A stretch of DNA of 21,431 nt, taken from positions 1-21,431 of the IMG/VR virus record IMGVR_UViG_3300037493_002390; one strand, written 5' to 3'. Under the pieces are notes generated by a model. The model had not been told where the DNA came from and did not search any database. It saw only the letters and a list, made by a program, of their open reading frames with translations. Of the stretch, positions 971 to 15,856 are shown one piece after another. This DNA comes from a virus. Position 1 is the first letter of the stretch; every line of letters starts with the position of its first letter. Position numbers and translations under genes: made by a program.

Positions 971-1366
971 TTAGTTTTTCTTTCTGTGCAATCCACCAAG
1001 TCTGCTATTTTCCGAATGGGTTAACCACCTCATGTTATCCAAAGTATAACCTTTTGCAGAATTAATTCTGTCAACCGTTGGTGCTAACTTTCTATCGTAG
1101 CCACTATTTTTGTATTCCTCGAACATATTAAAAAACTGCCTTTCATTACCATGTAATGCCCAAGTATAAAAATCTTCTCTCGATAATAATTCTTTGCCAT
1201 GATACAAATGGCGTTTTTTAACTTGAACCCCAGTAACCCTACTTTGCATATTTCGGTAAAGTCGCATTAAAAATCCTCTTGGTGTCTTTTCGTATTTTTT
1301 TGTGTAGGCATTATTATTCAATCGTCTTAACTCTCTTTGCCTTTCATTTTGCTTTAGTCTATCCAT
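971..1366 (-). CDS. HNH-like endonuclease (131 aa)
   Basis: The N-terminal half is basic and helical (KQNERQRELRRLNNNAYTKK). The C-terminal third carries TVDRINSAKGYTLDNMRWLTHSEN (residues about 97-120). This matches the D-R-I-x(3)-K-G-Y-T-x-(D/N)-N-x-x-W pattern seen in phage HNH and AP2-type homing endonucleases; the canonical first-half HH/CxxC residues are not obvious, so the call is family-level. It has its own putative promoter just upstream (-7 at 1383-1390), which suits a free-standing selfish endonuclease. An alternative is a structure-specific nuclease used in DNA metabolism, given the nuclease-rich neighbourhood. Confidence 0.65.
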   Translation of the reverse strand: MDRLKQNERQRELRRLNNNAYTKKYEKTPRGFLMRLYRNMQSRVTGVQVKKRHLYHGKELLSREDFYTWALHGNERQFFNMFEEYKNSGYDRKLAPTVDRINSAKGYTLDNMRWLTHSENSRLGGLHRKKN

Positions 1367-1382
1367 GTTTATATTATTTATG

Positions 1383-1390
1383 CAAATATA
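1383..1390 (-). promoter_or_regulatory. Putative Bacteroidota-type promoter (-7 element)
   Basis: Minus-strand TATATTTG matches the TAnnTTTG -7 consensus and lies 17-24 bp upstream of the ATG at 1366. No clear TTTG -33 box is present at the expected spacing, so this is a half-match. Confidence 0.45.
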
Positions 1391-1401
1391 ATAAATTCAT
1401 G

Positions 1402-2352
1402 TTAAACATTAGAAATACTTTTGAACATAATGTTTTCGAGCATCCGAATGTAGCTACGGTTGGATATTTTATAAAACTTTCGGCATGAGTTACATTTCAT
1501 GTGACGTTTAATGTAACCCATTGCCGTTGCATCGGTGTGTGATAGTTGCACGTTCTCACTCGCACATTCTGGGCAATGCCACTTTTCACCGCCTTTCAAA
1601 ACTGCCATGTTCGTGTTGTGGTAAATGTACGGTGACATAACCATATAAACATCCTCTAAAACTGCCACATCTTGAACACAATATTCAATCATCTTTTTTA
1701 GTGAAGCCTTATTTTTATGTTCGCAAATGTCAATCCACAACTTCATGCCCTCGTGGTCAAGTTTGCGTCCTACGTTCAACACCTTACCGAGATAGTCAAG
1801 TTTATTACTAGCGAAGCGAAAGTATTGGCGTGACTTCTTTAGCGTGTCAAGTGTGCGATAAATAGGGAACATTAAGTTGCCAGTTAAGATTGCCCTTGTG
1901 CGAAGTTCCTTGATGTCGAATTTATCACCGTTGTGCGCCACTATCTCATCAGCGTGTTTAATTACTTGGATGAAGTCTTTTACTAGTTTGGTATCATCTT
2001 GGTTTTTATCCCACTTTAGAACGTGAACTTTGTCTTCGTACTGCCATTTGTAGGCTATGCAGATAATTTTCTTTTGCCTTAAAATGTTATCGGGATTAAT
2101 GTTGACTTTCCAAAATTGAAATGTAGGCACAATGTAATAACTTGTTTCGATGTCAAAGAATAGCCTTTTGATTTCGCTATTTTGTTTTTTAAGATTTGCC
2201 TTATTTATAAACCTGCTGACCTCTCTTCTAAAACTTTCTGGTTTAACGTCTATCTTAAACTTCTTGAAAATCTCATCCGCAATTTGAGTAATGTTTTGGG
2301 TGCTTTCGTATCTTACTCGAATATACTCTTGGATTTCTTTAGTTAGAACCAT
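1402..2352 (-). CDS. DEDDy 3'-5' exonuclease with C-terminal zinc ribbon (316 aa)
   Basis: The ribonuclease H-like exonuclease core spans about residues 62-240: Exo I FFDIET (D67, E69), Exo II HNGDKFD (140-146) and Exo III YCVQD (Y224, D228, the DEDDy form). This resembles the proofreading domain of family B polymerases and stand-alone YprB-like exonucleases. Residues 1-50 look like a helix-turn-helix, and the C-terminus holds two cysteine pairs (C260/C263, C287/C290) forming a zinc ribbon that may bind DNA. Expected action is metal-dependent removal of 3' nucleotides from phage DNA during replication or recombination. No polymerase domain is attached. The leader is the A-rich ACAAACTATG type. 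The next gene upstream stops 35 bp before the start. Confidence 0.8.
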   Translation of the reverse strand: MVLTKEIQEYIRVRYESTQNITQIADEIFKKFKIDVKPESFRREVSRFINKANLKKQNSEIKRLFFDIETSYYIVPTFQFWKVNINPDNILRQKKIICIAYKWQYEDKVHVLKWDKNQDDTKLVKDFIQVIKHADEIVAHNGDKFDIKELRTRAILTGNLMFPIYRTLDTLKKSRQYFRFASNKLDYLGKVLNVGRKLDHEGMKLWIDICEHKNKASLKKMIEYCVQDVAVLEDVYMVMSPYIYHNTNMAVLKGGEKWHCPECASENVQLSHTDATAMGYIKRHMKCNSCRKFYKISNRSYIRMLENIMFKSISNV

Positions 2353-3195: not shown

Positions 3196-4904
3196 TAGAA
3201 TGGTGTTTTTTCGTTATCAATTTTTTTTAGGTTTGGCGCAGGTGGTGGTGTATCACCAACAAAAGGCAATCCATCTTCATCAATTTTAAAATATACTTTG
3301 TCAATCGGGAAGCCTCTTGTATAGCTAAATGTAACCTGAGCCATATCATCAACTATTGCCAAGTTGCAAACGGTTTCAGCCTTTTTTAATATACTGCTTC
3401 CCAAGTGTCCGGTTGCTTTGTTCGTGTAGCTGTTTTGATGTATGATAGTCATTAAGTGGAATTTCTTATCATCTGTCCATTTCATAACCTTTTGAATTAA
3501 TAGGTTAGTTTCTTTCAAGTCATTGAAATCTGCAACCAAGTCGGCAAGTCCATCTATCACCATTAAACCGATATTGTCTTTGTACTGACTTTCATACACC
3601 AAGTAATCAATAAACTGAATACGCTCTAAGTGGCTGTAAGGTCTAAGCGCAAACGGTTTATAGAAATCAGGATTACCTCCGCACATTTTAGGAATACGCT
3701 TAAAAACATTTTGAGCGTGCCATTCTCCTTGCTCGGTGTCTATGTCAATAACAAACTGCCCACTATCTCTGTGACCTTGTATGTGACCTAAGTATCTATC
3801 CGACTGACCGCCAACATAAGCCGAAACTAAAAGCGATTTGAAAAATGTTTTTCGTGACTTTGATGCACCGACTATTGCAGAAAAGTTGCCATAAGTACCA
3901 AATGAAGTTGGATAGTTATTGCCTCCGGTGGTGTGATAACCGATTGAAATAGCAGGTTTCGGATAGTCTAACTTTTTAGACACATCAACAAATGCTGAAT
4001 TAAATATCTGTTGTGGCAAAGATAGTTCCGCTTCCGGTTGCGTTGGTATTTCTTTTGGTGAATAGTTTGCTAACTTTTCAACCGCTGTAAATTCTTTGGT
4101 AGCGTGTAGGTTTGTTTTCCGGTAGGCTGACTTTACCGTTTGTTCAATTTCCTTTTCGGTGAAATCCTCTTGTTGGTATTGATAGCAAAAATACATTGCT
4201 TCGTGTTGACTTACTCCGTACTCGTTAAAGGCTGATGCCAAAACAAATATGTTATGGTTTCGGTTTCCTGCTGTCATTTGATACTTACCGCTCCACCACT
4301 TAAAAAGATTTTGGATTATTATGCTAGTGTCCTCAATCTTTATTTCGTTGTGGTAAATCGGTCGGTCTGCGCTTTTCGGTTCATCAACGTATTCTGTAAA
4401 CTCGATAGCATCTTTATTGATGTAAATATTCGGGTCACAGGATAAAAAACAAACTCGGCTTATGTTTTTATTTTTAGGGTCAAGTTCGGGATGGTGCTTT
4501 TGAAGTCCTCGATAATACCCGGCAAACCTTGCAAACTGCTTTGGTATTCGTGCTAGTGCTTTTACTCCATCACCGTTTGGCGAAACAAATGCAGCATAGA
4601 TGTAAGGCTTTTTGGCTAATTCTTTTTTGGTTTGTTCTACGTCTGCTAAATGGTCAAAGTCAAGTATTGCCAATCCGCTTAGTGCTTCGCAATGTTCATC
4701 AGTTCGGTTTGTAAATGTTCCTGCAAATACGATGGAAGGAAGTTCCGACTTTAGTTTACGGTTTAACTCTAGGTCGGTTGTTTTTCGCAACTTTTCTATT
4801 TTGTCCTTAATTCGGCAATCTCTTATCCAACCAAGTACAACGTCAACATCGTAAAGTTTAGGCTCGGTTATGTGTTGTATGTTATTATAAACGGTGCAAA
4901 TCAT
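3195..4904 (-). CDS. Primase-helicase: BT4734-like/VirE N-terminal domain plus RecA-fold ATPase (569 aa)
   Basis: Residues 1-175 resemble the BT4734/VirE-N domain related to archaeo-eukaryotic primases: LDFDH (81-85) gives two acidic metal ligands and SPNGDGVKALARI (108-120) a conserved glycine/lysine loop. Residues about 195-265 look like a primase C-terminal helical domain. The second half is a RecA/RepA-like helicase: Walker A GASKSRKT (346-353), an acidic DTEQG (389-393), Walker B LMVIDG (447-452) and a sensor-like TIIHQN (486-491). It probably primes and unwinds DNA at the phage replication fork. It starts with a 4-nt ATGA overlap with the replisome-organiser-like gene. A single chain with both activities is common in phages and plasmids of Bacteroidota. 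Confidence 0.88.
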   Translation of the reverse strand: MICTVYNNIQHITEPKLYDVDVVLGWIRDCRIKDKIEKLRKTTDLELNRKLKSELPSIVFAGTFTNRTDEHCEALSGLAILDFDHLADVEQTKKELAKKPYIYAAFVSPNGDGVKALARIPKQFARFAGYYRGLQKHHPELDPKNKNISRVCFLSCDPNIYINKDAIEFTEYVDEPKSADRPIYHNEIKIEDTSIIIQNLFKWWSGKYQMTAGNRNHNIFVLASAFNEYGVSQHEAMYFCYQYQQEDFTEKEIEQTVKSAYRKTNLHATKEFTAVEKLANYSPKEIPTQPEAELSLPQQIFNSAFVDVSKKLDYPKPAISIGYHTTGGNNYPTSFGTYGNFSAIVGASKSRKTFFKSLLVSAYVGGQSDRYLGHIQGHRDSGQFVIDIDTEQGEWHAQNVFKRIPKMCGGNPDFYKPFALRPYSHLERIQFIDYLVYESQYKDNIGLMVIDGLADLVADFNDLKETNLLIQKVMKWTDDKKFHLMTIIHQNSYTNKATGHLGSSILKKAETVCNLAIVDDMAQVTFSYTRGFPIDKVYFKIDEDGLPFVGDTPPPAPNLKKIDNEKTPF

Positions 4905-5623
4905 ATACCCATCCTCCTTTTTATATCGTTATCTTTTTTGCCTTCTACTCTATCTGGTGGTACTCGCTTCCATTCTTCAGGTGTCAAATCTCTATTCCAA
5001 TAATCAAATGGGTTTGTCCAATATTCAACTGGTTTAGATAGATTTTCAATATCTCCATTTTCCCAAAGTTTTGAAGAAAGGTATCTTTCAGCGTGTTTTC
5101 TGAATTTTATATCCGGTGTTGAGTCTAAATACTTTGGCAAGTGTTTACGCAAAGCCTCCATTTCAGTTTCTGTTAGTTTCATAAACCTTTGCTTTGCTGT
5201 TTTCTTTGCACCGTGTTTACCGTAAAACTCCCAAAACTTTTCAAATTGTTCCGAACGTAGTGAGGTATCTATATTAATTACATTTACATTTACATTATCA
5301 TTTACAGTTGAATTTGTTGAAGTTTGTTGAACACTTTGAACACTTGTTGAATTTGTTGAATTTTGTTTACGTTTGTTCGCACTTGCTTTACCTGCTTCAC
5401 TTCGTTTTTCTTTGGTATTTTCCCATTTCACCAAGTCCCTTTTCAGTTGTTGCTTAATTGGTTCAAATGCGATTTGCGTCAACTTATCCGGTGCTGTCGG
5501 ATTTAAATCGTTAACGTATCTAAAAAAATGTTTGATGAGTTTACCTGCCTCCGCATCTTCCAAAGCCTCAAATGTATGTATCAAATCCACATACAAAACG
5601 ACTGATTTCTTATTATCTGCCAT
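4901..5623 (-). CDS. Replisome organiser-like protein (DUF6291-like, 240 aa)
   Basis: The chosen ATG (5623) gives MADNKKSVVLYVDLIHTFEAL; an upstream ATG (5668) would run through the leader hairpin. Residues 1-85 match, from memory, a DUF6291-like phage domain. A low-complexity Ser/Thr/Asn/Gln linker (about 90-115) joins it to a C-terminal domain with FEKFWEFYGKHGAKKTAKQRF and a helical stretch ending in KHAERYLSSKLWENG, the pattern of phage replication initiators of the O/DnaD-like group. Expected role is origin binding and helicase loading, consistent with the ATGA overlap with the primase-helicase. The linker DNA (about 5285-5365) is a chain of GTTGAA-like units. Confidence 0.72.
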   Translation of the reverse strand: MADNKKSVVLYVDLIHTFEALEDAEAGKLIKHFFRYVNDLNPTAPDKLTQIAFEPIKQQLKRDLVKWENTKEKRSEAGKASANKRKQNSTNSTSVQSVQQTSTNSTVNDNVNVNVINIDTSLRSEQFEKFWEFYGKHGAKKTAKQRFMKLTETEMEALRKHLPKYLDSTPDIKFRKHAERYLSSKLWENGDIENLSKPVEYWTNPFDYWNRDLTPEEWKRVPPDRVEGKKDNDIKRRMGI

Positions 5624-5712: not shown

Positions 5713-5720
5713 CAAATTTA
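5713..5720 (-). promoter_or_regulatory. Putative promoter (-7 element) for the replication genes
   Basis: Minus-strand TAAATTTG fits TAnnTTTG. The region 19-23 bp upstream is T-rich but lacks a clean TTTG. Transcription would start near 5707 and give a leader of about 84 nt containing the hairpin. Confidence 0.45.
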
Positions 5721-6773: not shown

Positions 6774-6954
6774 TTTGTTTGGCTTGGTTTATTTGGTTAT
6801 AGTTAGTAATAATGTGTCTTAATTCTTCAAAGCAAATGTTTAAAGTCTTTCTTATCTCATCCCATTCTACGCCTAGTTTCCGCATTTCAAATGCTTTCTT
6901 GTTGGCAATTAGTTCAACATGGTATGGCTTGGTGAAATCTCTACGGTAACTCAT
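6721..6954 (-). CDS. Hypothetical protein (77 aa), possible DNA-binding helices
   Basis: Not recognised. MSYRRDFTKPYHVELIANKKAFEMRKLGVEWDEIRKTLNI contains a pattern (AFEMRKLGVEWDEIRKTL) that could be a helix-turn-helix like those in small phage regulators; the C-terminal 20 residues are Gln/Thr/Pro-rich and probably disordered. The start overlaps the Gp157-like gene by 4 nt (ATGA), supporting real translation. Confidence 0.55.
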   Translation of the reverse strand: MSYRRDFTKPYHVELIANKKAFEMRKLGVEWDEIRKTLNICFEELRHIITNYNQINQAKQNDRATGTTPQPTDSFNL

Positions 6955-7436
6955 TTTACTTGCAGATTTTGCTTTTCAATAATAGTAGCACCCTCAACTA
7001 TCACACCGCTTTCAATATCGCTTTTAATCGCTGTTTTGTTTACCGTTGGTTTATAGTCAAAGTATTTAGCATCAAGTAAACTTTCATCGCTAATATGTAC
7101 CGACTTTGATGAACGGAAAGACATTTTAACTAATGGCGTTTTAACTTCGCTCAATTCGTACTTTTGCATGGCAAAACCAATCGTTTCTTTTAGTTTAGCA
7201 GTTGCACTATCAATGCCGTCTTTCATTGCCTTTAATCGCTTTATTTCAGCGTCAATAGCTTTGCTGTCTGCTTCGTTGGATAGTATCACCAATCCGTAAT
7301 TAGCCGATTTCTCGGCTAACTCGGTTTGAGTGATTGCTAACTTATTAAACAATTCGTCTGATATTTCGCCTTGTGATGCGATTAGTTCATCATTGATGGC
7401 TTGTAACTCTTGGTCAATGTGGTATAAATTTCTCAT
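6951..7436 (-). CDS. Siphovirus Gp157-like protein (161 aa)
   Basis: The layout matches the Gp157 family (PF05565): a long N-terminal coiled-coil helix (about residues 8-95, with KAIDAEIKRLKAMKDGIDSA) followed by a small beta-rich tail. The tail includes FRSSKSVHISDESLLDAKYFDYKP and a DIESGVIVEGATI segment. Gp157 was first linked to phage resistance in Streptococcus thermophilus; it usually sits beside ERF or RecT annealing proteins, so a recombination accessory role is inferred. It is coupled by ATGA to the genes on both sides, although the HNH gene now separates it from ERF. Confidence 0.85.
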   Translation of the reverse strand: MRNLYHIDQELQAINDELIASQGEISDELFNKLAITQTELAEKSANYGLVILSNEADSKAIDAEIKRLKAMKDGIDSATAKLKETIGFAMQKYELSEVKTPLVKMSFRSSKSVHISDESLLDAKYFDYKPTVNKTAIKSDIESGVIVEGATIIEKQNLQVK

Positions 7437-7900
7437 AGTTCTTTAGTTATTCTAGTTCTTTGCTTTTTTCTTTTTATTAAACTTACATTAAATTCACTTA
7501 TTCCGTACTCAATAGCTATTTCTTTGTTTTTTTTCGTTGAATAAAATATTTCAATAGTTTGCTCATCTGTTATTTTGCTGTGACCATGATTAACGCCTAT
7601 TGCTTTATTTGCTCTACCTCGCTTAAACATATCATCTATGTTATCTTTTTGAGTTCCCAACTCTAAATGCAATGGATTTATGCATTGCTTATTATCGCAC
7701 TTGTGTCTAACTACAAGTCCATCTGGTATTTTCCCATTATTCAAATAATATTCAGAATAGACTATCCTACTAATTTTTAGAGTTTTGTTGTTAACCTTTT
7801 TTCTGGGATAACCACCGTCTGATTTGTGAGAATTGCAATTATGACATCCGTTGTCATCAATTAAATAAGTAATAGGTTTACTGCTCCAATGATTTTTCAT
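7433..7900 (-). CDS. HNH homing endonuclease with C-terminal helix-turn-helix (155 aa)
   Basis: The zinc-binding HNH core is clear: CHNC near residue 19-22, a KISRIVYSEYYLNNGKIP scaffold, VVRHKCDNKQCINPLHLELG (about 63-82) and TQKDNIDDM. The C-terminus (HSKITDEQTIEIFYSTKKNKEIAIEYGISEFNVSLIKRKK) is a repeat-type helix-turn-helix used by phage homing endonucleases for target binding. It probably makes site-specific cuts that spread the gene. It lies between ERF and Gp157, which are normally neighbours, so it is likely an intruder. The ATG lies only 2-3 nt beyond the U-tract hairpin at 7903-7967. Confidence 0.9.
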   Translation of the reverse strand: MKNHWSSKPITYLIDDNGCHNCNSHKSDGGYPRKKVNNKTLKISRIVYSEYYLNNGKIPDGLVVRHKCDNKQCINPLHLELGTQKDNIDDMFKRGRANKAIGVNHGHSKITDEQTIEIFYSTKKNKEIAIEYGISEFNVSLIKRKKQRTRITKEL

Positions 7901-7902
7901 GT

Positions 7903-8014
7903 TTTAAAAAGCCGAGCGCAGAAGGCTTATCAACAGACCCAAGAAGGAAAGTTGCAACTGCACTCGGTATATTTTTAGTATGAATAATATAGGACATGGT
8001 GTCTGTGATAAGCG
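7903..8014 (-). ncRNA. Structured RNA or attenuator leader of about 110 nt ending in a U-tract hairpin
   Basis: The predicted transcript begins near 8014, just after a consensus promoter. Arm A (8001-8013, read leftward GCTTATCACAGAC) pairs with A' (7925-7938, 7+6 bp with one bulged base). Arm B (7958-7967) pairs with B' (7912-7921), 10 bp with one G-U pair, followed by five U (7910-7906), an intrinsic terminator form. The order A-B-A'-B' means the two helices form a pseudoknot or exclude each other. No ORF uses this region. It is either a free small RNA or a regulated leader of the HNH/Gp157 operon. I cannot match it to a known RNA family. Confidence 0.6.
7906..7967 (-). terminator. Rho-independent terminator-like hairpin before the HNH gene
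   Basis: Stem CCGAGTGCAG / CTGCGCTCGG (one G-U pair) encloses a 36-nt loop and is followed by TTTTT on the minus strand. Its loop contains the A' arm of the interleaved helix, so terminator strength may depend on RNA folding. Confidence 0.6.
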
Positions 8015-8017
8015 ATA

Positions 8018-8049
8018 CAAACATATAAAAAATCTATTAATTCTACAAA
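8018..8049 (-). promoter_or_regulatory. Consensus Bacteroidota promoter downstream of ERF
   Basis: TTTG (8046-8049), a 20-bp spacer and TATGTTTG (8018-8025) match the TTTG/TAnnTTTG pair fully. It sits in the non-coding gap immediately after the ERF stop and would start transcription near 8011-8014, exactly at the first arm of the structured RNA. Confidence 0.65.
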
Positions 8050-8059
8050 ATAAATCTCA

Positions 8060-8611
8060 TTATTTCTTAACTTTTAGGTTCAACAATTCATTTTCCATTG
8101 GTTCAAGTAACTGGAACTTTGCTTTCACTTGGTCAATCGTTGCTTTGCCTTGTAGTAAAGCGTTGGTTACGTTGGTGAACTCAATCGTCCCACGTTCTAA
8201 AAATGGTTTTGTAACTGGTTTAGATGGTTGCTGTGCCATATTGTTACTATCTGCATCTGCTTCTGTTTCATCAATTAGGAATAAACCGTTTAAAGCGTAC
8301 TTTCTTGCATAGCTTGACGCTGTGCCAGTACATTGTTCTGCGCTCATGCCTTTGTGTTCGGATAGTTCCGCAAAGCCAGTAACTGATAATTCCGTTTCTT
8401 CGTTCTGAATAGTAGCAGTTGCCACTAAATACAACTTACTTCCAATGGCTTGGATGCTATCGGTTAGCGTTAGTAGACATTCGTGCTTTAGTAGAATAGG
8501 CTTCACGGCTTCCAGTATATCCTCTGCTGACCTGTACTTGTAATTACCGAATTTGTTGACGTTGCCCTTTGGGACTTTGAGTTCGTTTTGGATTTGGATT
8601 AACTTTTTCAT
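8060..8611 (-). CDS. erf: ERF family single-strand annealing recombinase (183 aa)
   Basis: Residues 1-115 match the ERF family (PF04404): IQNELKVPKGNVNKFGNYKYRSAEDILEAVKPIL, then TATIQNEETELSVTGFAE, then a Gly/Ala loop GTASSYARKYALNGLFLIDE. ERF proteins (P22 Erf as the founder) coat single strands and anneal complementary phage DNA, circularising or recombining genomes. The C-terminal 60 residues are a variable Gln/Pro-rich tail. The leader contains AACCAAACCAAATACTATG with no Shine-Dalgarno site. An SSB-like gene precedes it and Gp157 follows after the HNH gene, the usual annealing module. Confidence 0.92.
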   Translation of the reverse strand: MKKLIQIQNELKVPKGNVNKFGNYKYRSAEDILEAVKPILLKHECLLTLTDSIQAIGSKLYLVATATIQNEETELSVTGFAELSEHKGMSAEQCTGTASSYARKYALNGLFLIDETEADADSNNMAQQPSKPVTKPFLERGTIEFTNVTNALLQGKATIDQVKAKFQLLEPMENELLNLKVKK

Positions 8612-8636: not shown

Positions 8637-8915
8637 TTAAAATGGCGGTTCATTCAAAAAGTCTGCATTGCCGTTTGCTGTGTTATCTTGTTGTGGCTTT
8701 GGTTGCCACTCATTTAACACCGCATAATGTGTATTACCGTTCTTGTCTGCTTCTTTACGTCTAAGCAAATCAATGTTCACATAGCCTTTGGCGTTCGTGT
8801 GTTTGTTTAGTTCTTCGATTAATGTTTTAGCGTTGATTGATACGCTCACCACTTCACCGAAAGTAGTTTGTTTTGACTTAATGAATAAGCCGTTGATGTA
8901 AGTCTTGTTTGACAT
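8637..8915 (-). CDS. Putative single-stranded DNA-binding protein, small (92 aa)
   Basis: The N-terminal 70 residues are beta-rich (FIKSKQTTFGEVVSVSINAKTLIEEL, NIDLLRRKE) and the protein ends in a Gln/Asn-rich linker with an acidic-aromatic tip, DFLNEPPF, like the C-terminal hook of SSB proteins that recruits replication partners. It is shorter than a canonical OB-fold SSB (about 110 residues before the tail), so the fold is inferred. Its place directly before ERF fits an annealing module. The start is the ATG at 8915 with an A-rich leader. Confidence 0.6.
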   Translation of the reverse strand: MSNKTYINGLFIKSKQTTFGEVVSVSINAKTLIEELNKHTNAKGYVNIDLLRRKEADKNGNTHYAVLNEWQPKPQQDNTANGNADFLNEPPF

Positions 8916-13592: not shown

Positions 13593-15856
13593 AGTTTCTC
13601 AAATATTTCGATGTAAGTTCTTGCCGCTATTACTGAATTACTTTGTAAATTCGTACCACTTGCAAATCTAAATTGAACCGTCCCTGCTGTTGACGATGTT
13701 GTTATATTGCCACTCACAATTAAATCACTTGCTGAAGCCGCTATTCTGTTTGATGCCGTTGTTTGCAATGCACCATCTACTGACGCTTCTTGTGTCATAG
13801 TTGTAGCACTACCTCTACCACTTAGAAAAATAATACTAGTCGCTCCTGTTGGCAATGTTGCTCCTATTCGTACACCACCTGCCGCACCAGCTGCCGATGT
13901 CACAGCAATTACTCCACGAACTATGTATGTTTTATTTGCCGCTAATGTTGCAGTCACTAACCCTGTTATGTTTGCTGCTGCGTTTGATGTTGTTGTCTGA
14001 TCTGATGCAATAAATATCCTTGCTACTAAAACAGAATTAATGTAAGGCGCATTATAGTAATGATTTGCATTTGTGCTTACTGCGCTTTGTTTATTCGCCA
14101 CATCTTCGGGCGTAAAACCTAAAGCGTTTTGTTTCCCATCAAATGTTGACCAATCGGCTGAACTTAATGCACCTCTATTTACTGCACTTGCAGTAGGCAA
14201 ATTAAATGTATGCGTTGCTGTTGCTGAATTAATCGCAAAATCAGTTCCACTTGTACCAACTGCGAAGTTTTGAACTTGGTCAGTCAGTCCGTTTAAAGCC
14301 GTTAAGCCTGTTGAAAATGTAGTGATAACTTGGCTAAGATGATTATCTTCTGTGTGAAGTTTAATCGTGCGACCGCTATTGTTTACATATATCCTAACTG
14401 CCAATCTATCGGTTGCTAATAGTGCTGTTTGCGGAACTGCTAAAGCACTCACATATAAATCTATTGCAGTACCGTTGGTGATACCTTCGGGAGTAGCCGA
14501 GTTAGATGCAATTAAAGATAGTGTTGCTCCGTTCCACTTGTATAGTTCAAGATAAAAAGATGGCGAACCACCGCCACTCGATGCGCTGAAATATGTTTCG
14601 AAGTTCCAATTTCCTGCGGGTATCTCTAGTAAGTTTGGAACATTTGCATCTGTGATAAAAGATTGAATATATCCGTTAGTGTTTATAGTAAAGTCAGTCC
14701 CTGCACCTAAGATAGGTGTCCTATCCATTTCTTTGAAAGCTACACCGCCAAATGTACCTTGACTTACTGAACCGTTCAAATAAAATGATTGCGAAGCTCC
14801 ACCACCTGTTGAATTAGGAAAGTTAGCTAATGTTCCATCGCCTCTAACATATTGACTAACTAACCCTGCACCTGTAACCGCTATATCTCCACTTGAAGTT
14901 ATAGGGCTATTTGAAACGGTAAATGCGCTTGGCATTGTTAACCCTACCGATGTTACTGTGCCATTTGTAATTTCATCCGTTGTGGCAATGGTGTAACTCC
15001 CTGCCGCTTTATTCGGGAACTCTAATATAATCCCAGTAGTAGTTGCGGCTGTGTTTTTTAAATTGCTTTCGTGTGTTCCGTTTCCTAAACCTAAAGAACC
15101 ATCCGAAGCAATATAGGCGTAAGTGTCATTTGTATCATTTGCCGTTCCCACATAGCTATCTGCGACTTCGCTATAAATCCCTGCCGTATCGCCTACGGTT
15201 ATAAAATTAGTTGTTATACTTCCTTCGTCTGTAACTTGTTGAAGTGTTGGAACACTAGAAACTTGCAACGCCCAAACTGCCGCACTTGCTGTAGCATCAC
15301 TACAAACATACACATCACCGTTGTCTAAAATCCAACGTGAACCAATTACAAAGCCTTTAGTATCGTCATCGTTTGCCGTTGGTGTAAATGTGAAGTTATG
15401 GCTCACTTCTCGAATGGTGAACCCATCTTGTTGCATGGTGTATAAACGCCCTGCTTCCCACTTCAATTCGTAATCCAATGAACAAACTAGCGCAACTCCT
15501 TTTGCGCCACCGTTCCCTGCATCGGTTAAGCCCTTTCTTACTCGAGAACCGTTGTCGAAAAATATCTCATCCCCATCGCTGACAAATATATCTTCACCTC
15601 CTGTAGTGTTGCCCTCTACCAATACTTCGTTTAGTGTTTGATTTCCACCTCCACCGCCTTGCACCTGCACCCAATCGCCTTGCTCGTTTAGAAAGTAATC
15701 CGCTTCGCCACTTTCGCTAATACCTAAACAATCCCTAACCTCTTCGCAAATGTTACTAGGTAATTGAGTAGCTGGGAACGTCAAAACAAGTGAAACGCTT
15801 TTTGTTTCCGCTTGTATAGTTGTTGCGCTAAAGGTGCAAACTATGTCAATTATCAT
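13589..15856 (-). CDS. Tail fibre / receptor-binding protein (755 aa)
   Basis: A long Gly/Ser/Thr/Ala-rich chain with fibre repeats. GTVTSVGLTMPSAFTVSNSP, then SGDIAVTGAG and YVRGDGTLANFP, is a repeat frequent in fibres of Bacteroidota phages. NRGALSSADWSTFDGKQNAL followed by GFTPEDVANKQ is a second such motif. A poly-Gly (VQGGGGGNQ) hinge follows the N-terminal attachment part, and the last 150 residues look like a compact beta-rich knob, the likely receptor-binding head. It overlaps the BppU-like gene by 11 nt. The knob would decide the host range. Confidence 0.82.
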   Translation of the reverse strand: MIIDIVCTFSATTIQAETKSVSLVLTFPATQLPSNICEEVRDCLGISESGEADYFLNEQGDWVQVQGGGGGNQTLNEVLVEGNTTGGEDIFVSDGDEIFFDNGSRVRKGLTDAGNGGAKGVALVCSLDYELKWEAGRLYTMQQDGFTIREVSHNFTFTPTANDDDTKGFVIGSRWILDNGDVYVCSDATASAAVWALQVSSVPTLQQVTDEGSITTNFITVGDTAGIYSEVADSYVGTANDTNDTYAYIASDGSLGLGNGTHESNLKNTAATTTGIILEFPNKAAGSYTIATTDEITNGTVTSVGLTMPSAFTVSNSPITSSGDIAVTGAGLVSQYVRGDGTLANFPNSTGGGASQSFYLNGSVSQGTFGGVAFKEMDRTPILGAGTDFTINTNGYIQSFITDANVPNLLEIPAGNWNFETYFSASSGGGSPSFYLELYKWNGATLSLIASNSATPEGITNGTAIDLYVSALAVPQTALLATDRLAVRIYVNNSGRTIKLHTEDNHLSQVITTFSTGLTALNGLTDQVQNFAVGTSGTDFAINSATATHTFNLPTASAVNRGALSSADWSTFDGKQNALGFTPEDVANKQSAVSTNANHYYNAPYINSVLVARIFIASDQTTTSNAAANITGLVTATLAANKTYIVRGVIAVTSAAGAAGGVRIGATLPTGATSIIFLSGRGSATTMTQEASVDGALQTTASNRIAASASDLIVSGNITTSSTAGTVQFRFASGTNLQSNSVIAARTYIEIFEKL

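Follow-up and report, generated by a model that had tools for sequence, protein, structure and literature searches.

The DNA ahead of an HNH endonuclease gene in the window (the whole stretch analysed here, a 21.4-kb virus fragment of 21,431 nucleotides, IMGVR_UViG_3300037493_002390) almost certainly encodes a structured leader RNA acting in cis. We somewhat favour the reading that this RNA forms the 5' leader of the HNH gene and belongs to a family of riboregulators that act in cis in Bacteroidota phages, for which a conditional attenuator model is proposed. As judged by sequence comparison, the members of this family have a common structure, undergo compensatory change and are placed ahead of genes; the family looks like an RNA control element that is apparently undescribed. 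A preliminary description of this DNA had proposed that a leader, through a pseudoknot or competing folds, might switch the HNH gene. This proposal is now well supported, as the element recurs before many start codons with compensatory changes. The larger family, the 5' hairpin (P1) of most members and the second copy of the 5' pairing sequence in one subtype go beyond that description.

Structure and promoter of the window leader

The genes lie on the minus strand in the order ERF, HNH_3, Gp157, methyltransferase, DUF6291/primosomal-like protein and BT4734-N/PriCT primase (Table 1). The ERF-HNH interval is 159 bp long and gene-free. All the elements previously claimed for it, namely a 13-bp A/A' helix, a B/B' helix, the order A-B-A'-B' and five T before the HNH gene, are present where they had been placed. 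The A/A' helix contains one bulged base (stacking energy -19.3 kcal/mol), the B/B' helix has 10 bp including one G-U (-21.7), and the interleaved helices are followed by C, T5, AAAAC and the HNH start codon. The window also encodes, at 8637-8915, a protein with no Pfam or PHROG match that by eye resembles short phage SSB-like proteins and is a candidate RNA-binding regulator of the kissing leaders described below.

Table 1. Location of the features discussed in the text. Positions refer to the window unless a contig is named.
Feature	Position	Strand	Basis or remark
ERF gene	8060-8611	-	Upstream neighbour of cassette
Inserted cassette, ~610 bp (promoter, leader RNA, HNH gene)	7444..8054	-	blastn against L002-L007; ends +/- ~10 bp
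-33 element TTTG	8046..8049	-	Sequence; consensus from PMC6847099
-7 element TATGTTTG (TAnnTTTG)	8018..8025	-	Sequence; PMC6847099; spacer 20 nt, disfavoured G at -9
Predicted transcription start	8013	-	Fifth base after box; F. johnsoniae spacing
Arm A GCTTATCACAGAC, extreme 5' end of predicted RNA	8001..8013	-	Pairing computation
Arm B CCGAGTGCAG	7958..7967	-	Pairing computation
Arm A' GTCTGTTGATAAGC, within B-hairpin loop	7925..7938	-	Pairing computation
Arm B' CTGCGCTCGG	7912..7921	-	Pairing computation
U tract TTTTT	7906..7910	-	Sequence
HNH_3 endonuclease gene, 155 aa, ATG at 7900	7433..7900	-	Pfam PF13392, E 7.6e-11; PHROG HNH endonucleases
Gp157 gene	6951-7436	-	Downstream neighbour of HNH gene
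-7 element TAAATTTG of second copy	5713..5720	-	Sequence
Second leader copy	5712-5621	-	Five aligned copies 100% paired, compensatory changes
DUF6291/primosomal-like replication protein gene after second copy, 240 aa from its ATG	4901..5623	-	Pfam PF19808, E 1.3e-22; PHROG primosomal protein
L304 leader	1283-1410		Second A copy at start codon
L305 leader	15728-15850 (index)	-	Second A copy at start codon

The best interleaved pair of helices has a stacking energy of -41.0 kcal/mol, a value reached by none of 3000 dinucleotide-shuffled versions of this 113-nt segment (mean -17.5, best -36.5); the fold of the whole transcript region gives z = -2.9. Used as a sequence query, the window RNA returned no matches among isolates or viral contigs, and its helices were therefore judged by chance statistics and family resemblance instead of covariation. 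A chance fold in A/T-rich intergenic DNA might be considered for a single instance, the more so as the structure descriptor has a background of its own, but the outcome of the shuffles and the covariation within the family make it extremely improbable.

The B/B' helix is a G+C-rich stem adjoined by a T run (C, then T5), as in an intrinsic terminator or attenuator. Its loop of 36 nt, which holds A', is not the canonical short terminator loop of 3-8 nt, which is why B/B' is absent from the output of the terminator scan. The end of B' (7912) lies 11 nt ahead of the ATG and the start region is A/U-rich and unpaired in the model; no stem masking the ribosome binding site, as in T4-type endonuclease hairpins, was found in the window leader. 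Neither a convincing P1 hairpin nor a second A copy is found there: A forms the bare 5' end and is longer than in relatives, and the loops measure 33, 19 and 3 nt versus 24, 10 and 8 in the main group.

The promoter, TTTG-N20-TATGTTTG at the usual spacing, is of the Bacteroidota sigma-A type, which lies outside the coverage of the sigma-70 scan. In mapped Flavobacterium johnsoniae promoters the refined consensus is TAHHTTTG, a G at -9 is nearly absent and the G of the box stands at -5 (PMC6847099). With this spacing the predicted start falls on the first base of arm A, in agreement with the earlier statement that the transcript begins with this arm. The 'full-consensus promoter' of the preliminary description fits TTTG-N20-TAnnTTTG, but the term is slightly too strong given the G at -9 avoided by mapped promoters.

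Probable joint insertion of the leader and the HNH gene

Comparison by blastn with six related viral contigs (L002-L007, ERF genes 93-96% identical) revealed that homology to the window ends at 8055 and picks up at 7443-7448. The sequences of the empty sites were read directly: leader and HNH gene are jointly absent, and the ERF stop overlaps the Gp157 start with nothing in between. The leader and the HNH gene thus appear to have arrived as one insertion and, to judge from these sites, very probably moved as one cassette. A single insertion of this kind is expected for a free-standing homing endonuclease. As in a homing cassette, the insertion separates genes that are adjacent in relatives (six empty sites) and its product has an HNH domain with phage endonuclease relatives (HNH_3; PHROG 59/1872/6254; 1236 phage records). 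The earlier suggestion of a leader serving the HNH/Gp157/replication operon is wrong for the copy at 7903-8049, in view of the overlap between ERF and Gp157 in the six relatives; in the window, the replication-gene leader is the second copy (Table 1).

Relatives of the HNH protein occur in T7-like, Bacillus and other phages and those inspected are devoid of such a leader, which is therefore not a general part of HNH genes. An HNH-specific RNA comparable to the HEARO/IscB guides was ruled out: the protein is a 155-aa HNH_3 protein in which no other domain was found, and the leader serves unrelated genes.

A family of leaders in Bacteroidota phages

An initial scan for interleaved helices near HNH genes, performed with no promoter requirement, was swamped by G+C-rich background. 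A scan combining the promoter box, interleaved helices and a T run was run on contigs with related ERF genes, and the design was found in many of them, ahead of diverse genes. These encode DUF6291 proteins, BT4734-N primases, NUMOD4-HNH, GIY-YIG and DnaD-like proteins, small ORFs and, on a reading of the sequence with no supported Pfam match, putative ParB-like proteins. Among viral contigs, L089 contains the closest HNH relative (45%), with a leader of its own that is built alike but unrelated in sequence; L018 displays such a leader before a NUMOD4-HNH gene. MAFFT could not align the window RNA with L089, L018 or L011, where the likeness is one of architecture alone.

In most copies, A is located in the loop of the 5' hairpin P1, whose first base coincides with the predicted transcript start or lies within a few bases of it. 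A' occupies the apical loop, closed by an inner stem, of a second hairpin; the A-A' pairing is thus a kissing interaction. In one copy after another, the leader is succeeded on its own strand by an ORF, a few to about 30 nt away. This close succession argues against a stand-alone, trans-acting small RNA of about 105 nt ending at the U tract, as does the consumption of A and A' in cis with no seed common to the copies. Such an RNA, for which the leader's own promoter and terminator-like end would be suitable, is very unlikely. The free-standing small RNA of about 110 nt considered previously accordingly loses ground as a main role, the more so as the two copies of the window have different kissing sequences.

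Endonucleases of three families (HNH_3, NUMOD4-HNH and GIY-YIG) use the leader. Between L049 and L051, leader and promoter are 98% alike over 166 nt, and the next gene encodes a GIY-YIG protein in L049 versus a DUF6291 protein in L051. The GIY-YIG nuclease appears, from this comparison, to have captured the leader of a DUF6291 gene; the window endonuclease apparently brought its leader along and that of L049 landed behind an existing one. The L049 gene (L049:550-960), located behind the L051-like leader, also has its first codons in common (ATGAAAACAG).

Several additional leaders were observed. The contig of L004 carries, in L276 (minus strand, index ~180), a strong extra leader (82.7 bits with covariance model R1) before a ParB-like gene; it belongs to a close relative of the window phage, in a region beyond the reach of the window fragment. 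In two other close relatives, L277 (~10379, plus strand) and L278 (minus-strand index ~3174), a NUMOD4-type endonuclease gene has its own kissing leader (TGCG[CTGCAC]CGCA). The leaders of L326 and L333 contain an extra perfect hairpin (GGTTTTCTGAAAACC) between T run and ATG.

Three cultured phages, Cellulophaga phi18:3 (record 3183, upstream of gp007-gp006), Olleya Harreka_1 (30070, at gp54-56) and Flavobacterium elemoA_1-9A (20761), each have one clear copy at the head of the replication genes; no convincing copy was found in Riemerella PJA1 or Flavobacterium tant8-1. Model R1, an insensitive search whose strict filters left just 10 candidates per genome to be scored, had no match over 395 Bacteroidota genomes. 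The subgroup promoter (see below) is absent from the same genomes, and the subgroup therefore seems to be phage-borne.

No Rfam 15 family matched the window or any of 13 copy-bearing loci (the best score below threshold was 14.7 bits against 75.2), and ribozymes and known riboswitches were ruled out on this ground. Nucleotides conserved in the manner of a riboswitch aptamer were not found across the family, unpaired motifs being common within subgroups only (alignments A2-A5). A leader peptide was likewise rejected, the short ATG frames of one subgroup not being kept in others. The element is not described in surveys of candidate structured RNAs (PMC2864571, PMC8040213), nor was a description found in the open-licence literature on Bacteroidetes phage leaders, pseudoknots, kissing loops and structured RNAs.

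Covariation of the helices

Applied to 2.4 Mb of simulated sequence, the structure descriptor yields 155 matches scoring -24 or better, and single weak matches were not counted. In eight leaders selected by structure, 94% of the cells are paired, with 54 two-sided cells versus 17 when shuffled and a covariation of 0.739 versus 0.257. In order to avoid selection by structure, viral contigs were also searched by the subgroup promoter only, TTTGAGTTTGATTA-N10-13-TATATTTG, and 31 distinct leaders were retrieved. Their best sets of P1, kissing and B helices average -41.4 versus -21.8 for shuffled sequences, and the real median was reached by 0 of 620 shuffles. The automatic choice of helices was wrong for L327, L329, L334 and L346, where the right set is visible in the sequence.

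An alignment of 22 leaders was established, one of which (L052) was added from the earlier set. Pairing amounts to 96.7% overall, with 100% for P1, 97.2% for the kissing helix, 95.0% for B and 96.6% for the inner stem. Two-sided change is seen at 6 of the 8 pairs of the kissing helix. Two-sided cells number 154 versus 45.5 in shuffled alignments, and the covariation is 0.714 versus 0.245 shuffled and at most 0.166 in slid controls; shared ancestry inflates such counts and is preserved by the slid control.

The second copy of the window, at 5712-5624, has a P1 stem TGTAT/ATACA whose loop GTGGAG (5703-5698) kisses CTCCAC (5659-5654) in the loop of the hairpin TGCCTCA (5679-5673)/TGAGGCA (5640-5634); CTTTTATTTT and the DUF6291 start codon come next. 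It is weak by itself, its score being reached by 7 of 2000 shuffles. Aligned with four relatives, which hold this leader at the head of their replication genes with compensatory changes, it is fully paired in all cells, and 3 pairs are changed on both sides. The kissing sequences of the two window copies are unlike each other within one phage, which points to action in cis.

An operator for a phage RNA-binding protein, such as the SSB-like or ERF protein, would resemble the T4 gene 32 pseudoknot, whose anatomy is alike, with a 5' pseudoknot followed by an unstructured A+U-rich start (PMC3014915). Many of the genes behind the leaders are replication genes, as this explanation would have it. The kissing sequences vary widely, even within one phage, so that recognition would have to be by shape only, and the leader is common to unrelated genes; an operator of this kind is consequently unlikely.

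Two proposed outputs on one kissing core

In most leaders, a T run adjoins B' and is followed by nearly pure A/U and the ATG. Promoter-selected leaders with no second A copy have a T run behind B' (at least 5 T out of 8), a feature required neither in the promoter-only selection nor in helix scoring. A second, identical copy of A is found at the start codon in L327 (ATACGCAACCA before ATG), L329, L321/L331, L319/L322 and L304/L305. In the homologous leaders L304 and L305, A, A' and the second copy read TCCAC/GTGGA/TCCAC versus TCGAC/GTCGA/TCGAC, with one base altered in concert in all three; L327 and L329 provide a further case of such covariation. The same pattern gave 1 chance match in shuffled sequence of equal size (2.45 Mb). 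As the second copy covaries with A and A', A' seems to have two alternative partners, one of them beside the start codon.

Leader switches usually act through one of two outputs, a terminator or a start-site mask. Some leaders being terminator-like and others start-site masking, a switch is favoured over a static structure. The latter would be a 5' stabiliser without switching: the kissing complex would guard against mRNA decay and hold the A/U-rich start region open. All helices can form together and the inner stem closing the A' loop is conserved alongside the kiss, a circumstance that a static kissing complex would explain as well as a switch. Such a stabiliser agrees with the position of A or P1, which in almost every copy begins no more than a few bases from the predicted start, with the simultaneous conservation of four helices including the inner stem around A', and with the lack of conservation of unpaired sequence across subgroups. 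It leaves the T run behind B' and the covarying second A copy unexplained, and is on the whole rather unlikely.

Proposed mechanism

The likeliest function of the leader is the conditional expression of the downstream gene, most likely with a terminator as output in the window copy; the chances for conditional attenuation or a translation switch are about even. Termination and switching, together with its direction and its signal, are what we infer, and the model can be summarized as follows. The host RNA polymerase would start at 8013 and the first 13 nt of the RNA (A) would pair with A' in the loop of the B/B' hairpin; in most relatives A is held in the loop of a 5' hairpin, so that two hairpins kiss. 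The B/B' hairpin and the U tract before the start codon would constitute a conditional intrinsic terminator, or attenuator. A minority of leaders would instead rely, for their output, on the second A copy beside the start codon, which would compete for A'. During emergence of the RNA, the A-A' contact would form and decide whether the polymerase or the ribosome continues into the gene. In the window, the leader would have come with the homing-type HNH gene, which would so carry the phage's own early expression signal.

A bolder version, quite unlikely at present, is a new phage RNA switch in which the A' loop chooses between the identical A (5' end) and second copy (start codon) or the terminator, with a leader-specific code diversifying in the manner of plasmid incompatibility loops. 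If this version were true, short terminated leaders could act on sister transcripts, limiting replication or excluding related incoming phages. Because a single kissing core comes with either a T run or a second A copy as its output, the switching idea is easily tested.

To our knowledge, little is known about gene control in Bacteroidota phages. A compact, covariation-backed RNA element heads replication genes in many phages, three of which can be grown, and selfish endonucleases carry copies too. The element provides a model of RNA-based control of phage replication genes that can be tested directly, and a tag by which such operons can be recognised.

Comparison with known systems

Like attenuators and riboswitch-type leaders, the family combines a promoter-proximal structured leader with a hairpin and U tract before the start codon, and its output is of two kinds, through a terminator or by masking of the start site. 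It differs from them in having no known ligand, leader peptide, conserved aptamer sequence or Rfam match, and in pairing a 5' hairpin loop (or bare 5' end) with the loop of a terminator-like hairpin.

In T4-type homing endonuclease genes (I-TevI, mobE, segB), the structured leader consists of single hairpins masking the ribosome binding site (PMC2988022). The likeness resides in a structured leader ahead of a mobile phage endonuclease gene, whereas the present family has its own promoter, interleaved helices and a U tract and also serves non-mobile replication genes. T4 gene 32 has a 5' pseudoknot followed by an A/U-rich start region (PMC3014915). Compared to it, the family is larger, of the kissing type and endowed with a U tract, precedes many unrelated genes and has no known binding protein.

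Kissing RNAs also control plasmid replication, as in ColE1 RNAI/RNAII and in the IncI repZ pseudoknot. Loop pairing, fast-changing sequence and a position ahead of replication genes are common to these systems and to the leaders, and in the subtype with a second A copy a hairpin loop can likewise pair with the start region of the gene. Unlike in these plasmids, no antisense RNA is seen, both partners reside in one leader and the carrier is a phage. The put leaders of HK022, finally, are two hairpins located just behind phage early promoters and act by specific contact with RNA polymerase; in the present family, by contrast, pairing takes place between the loops, and the sequences that pair are free to vary.
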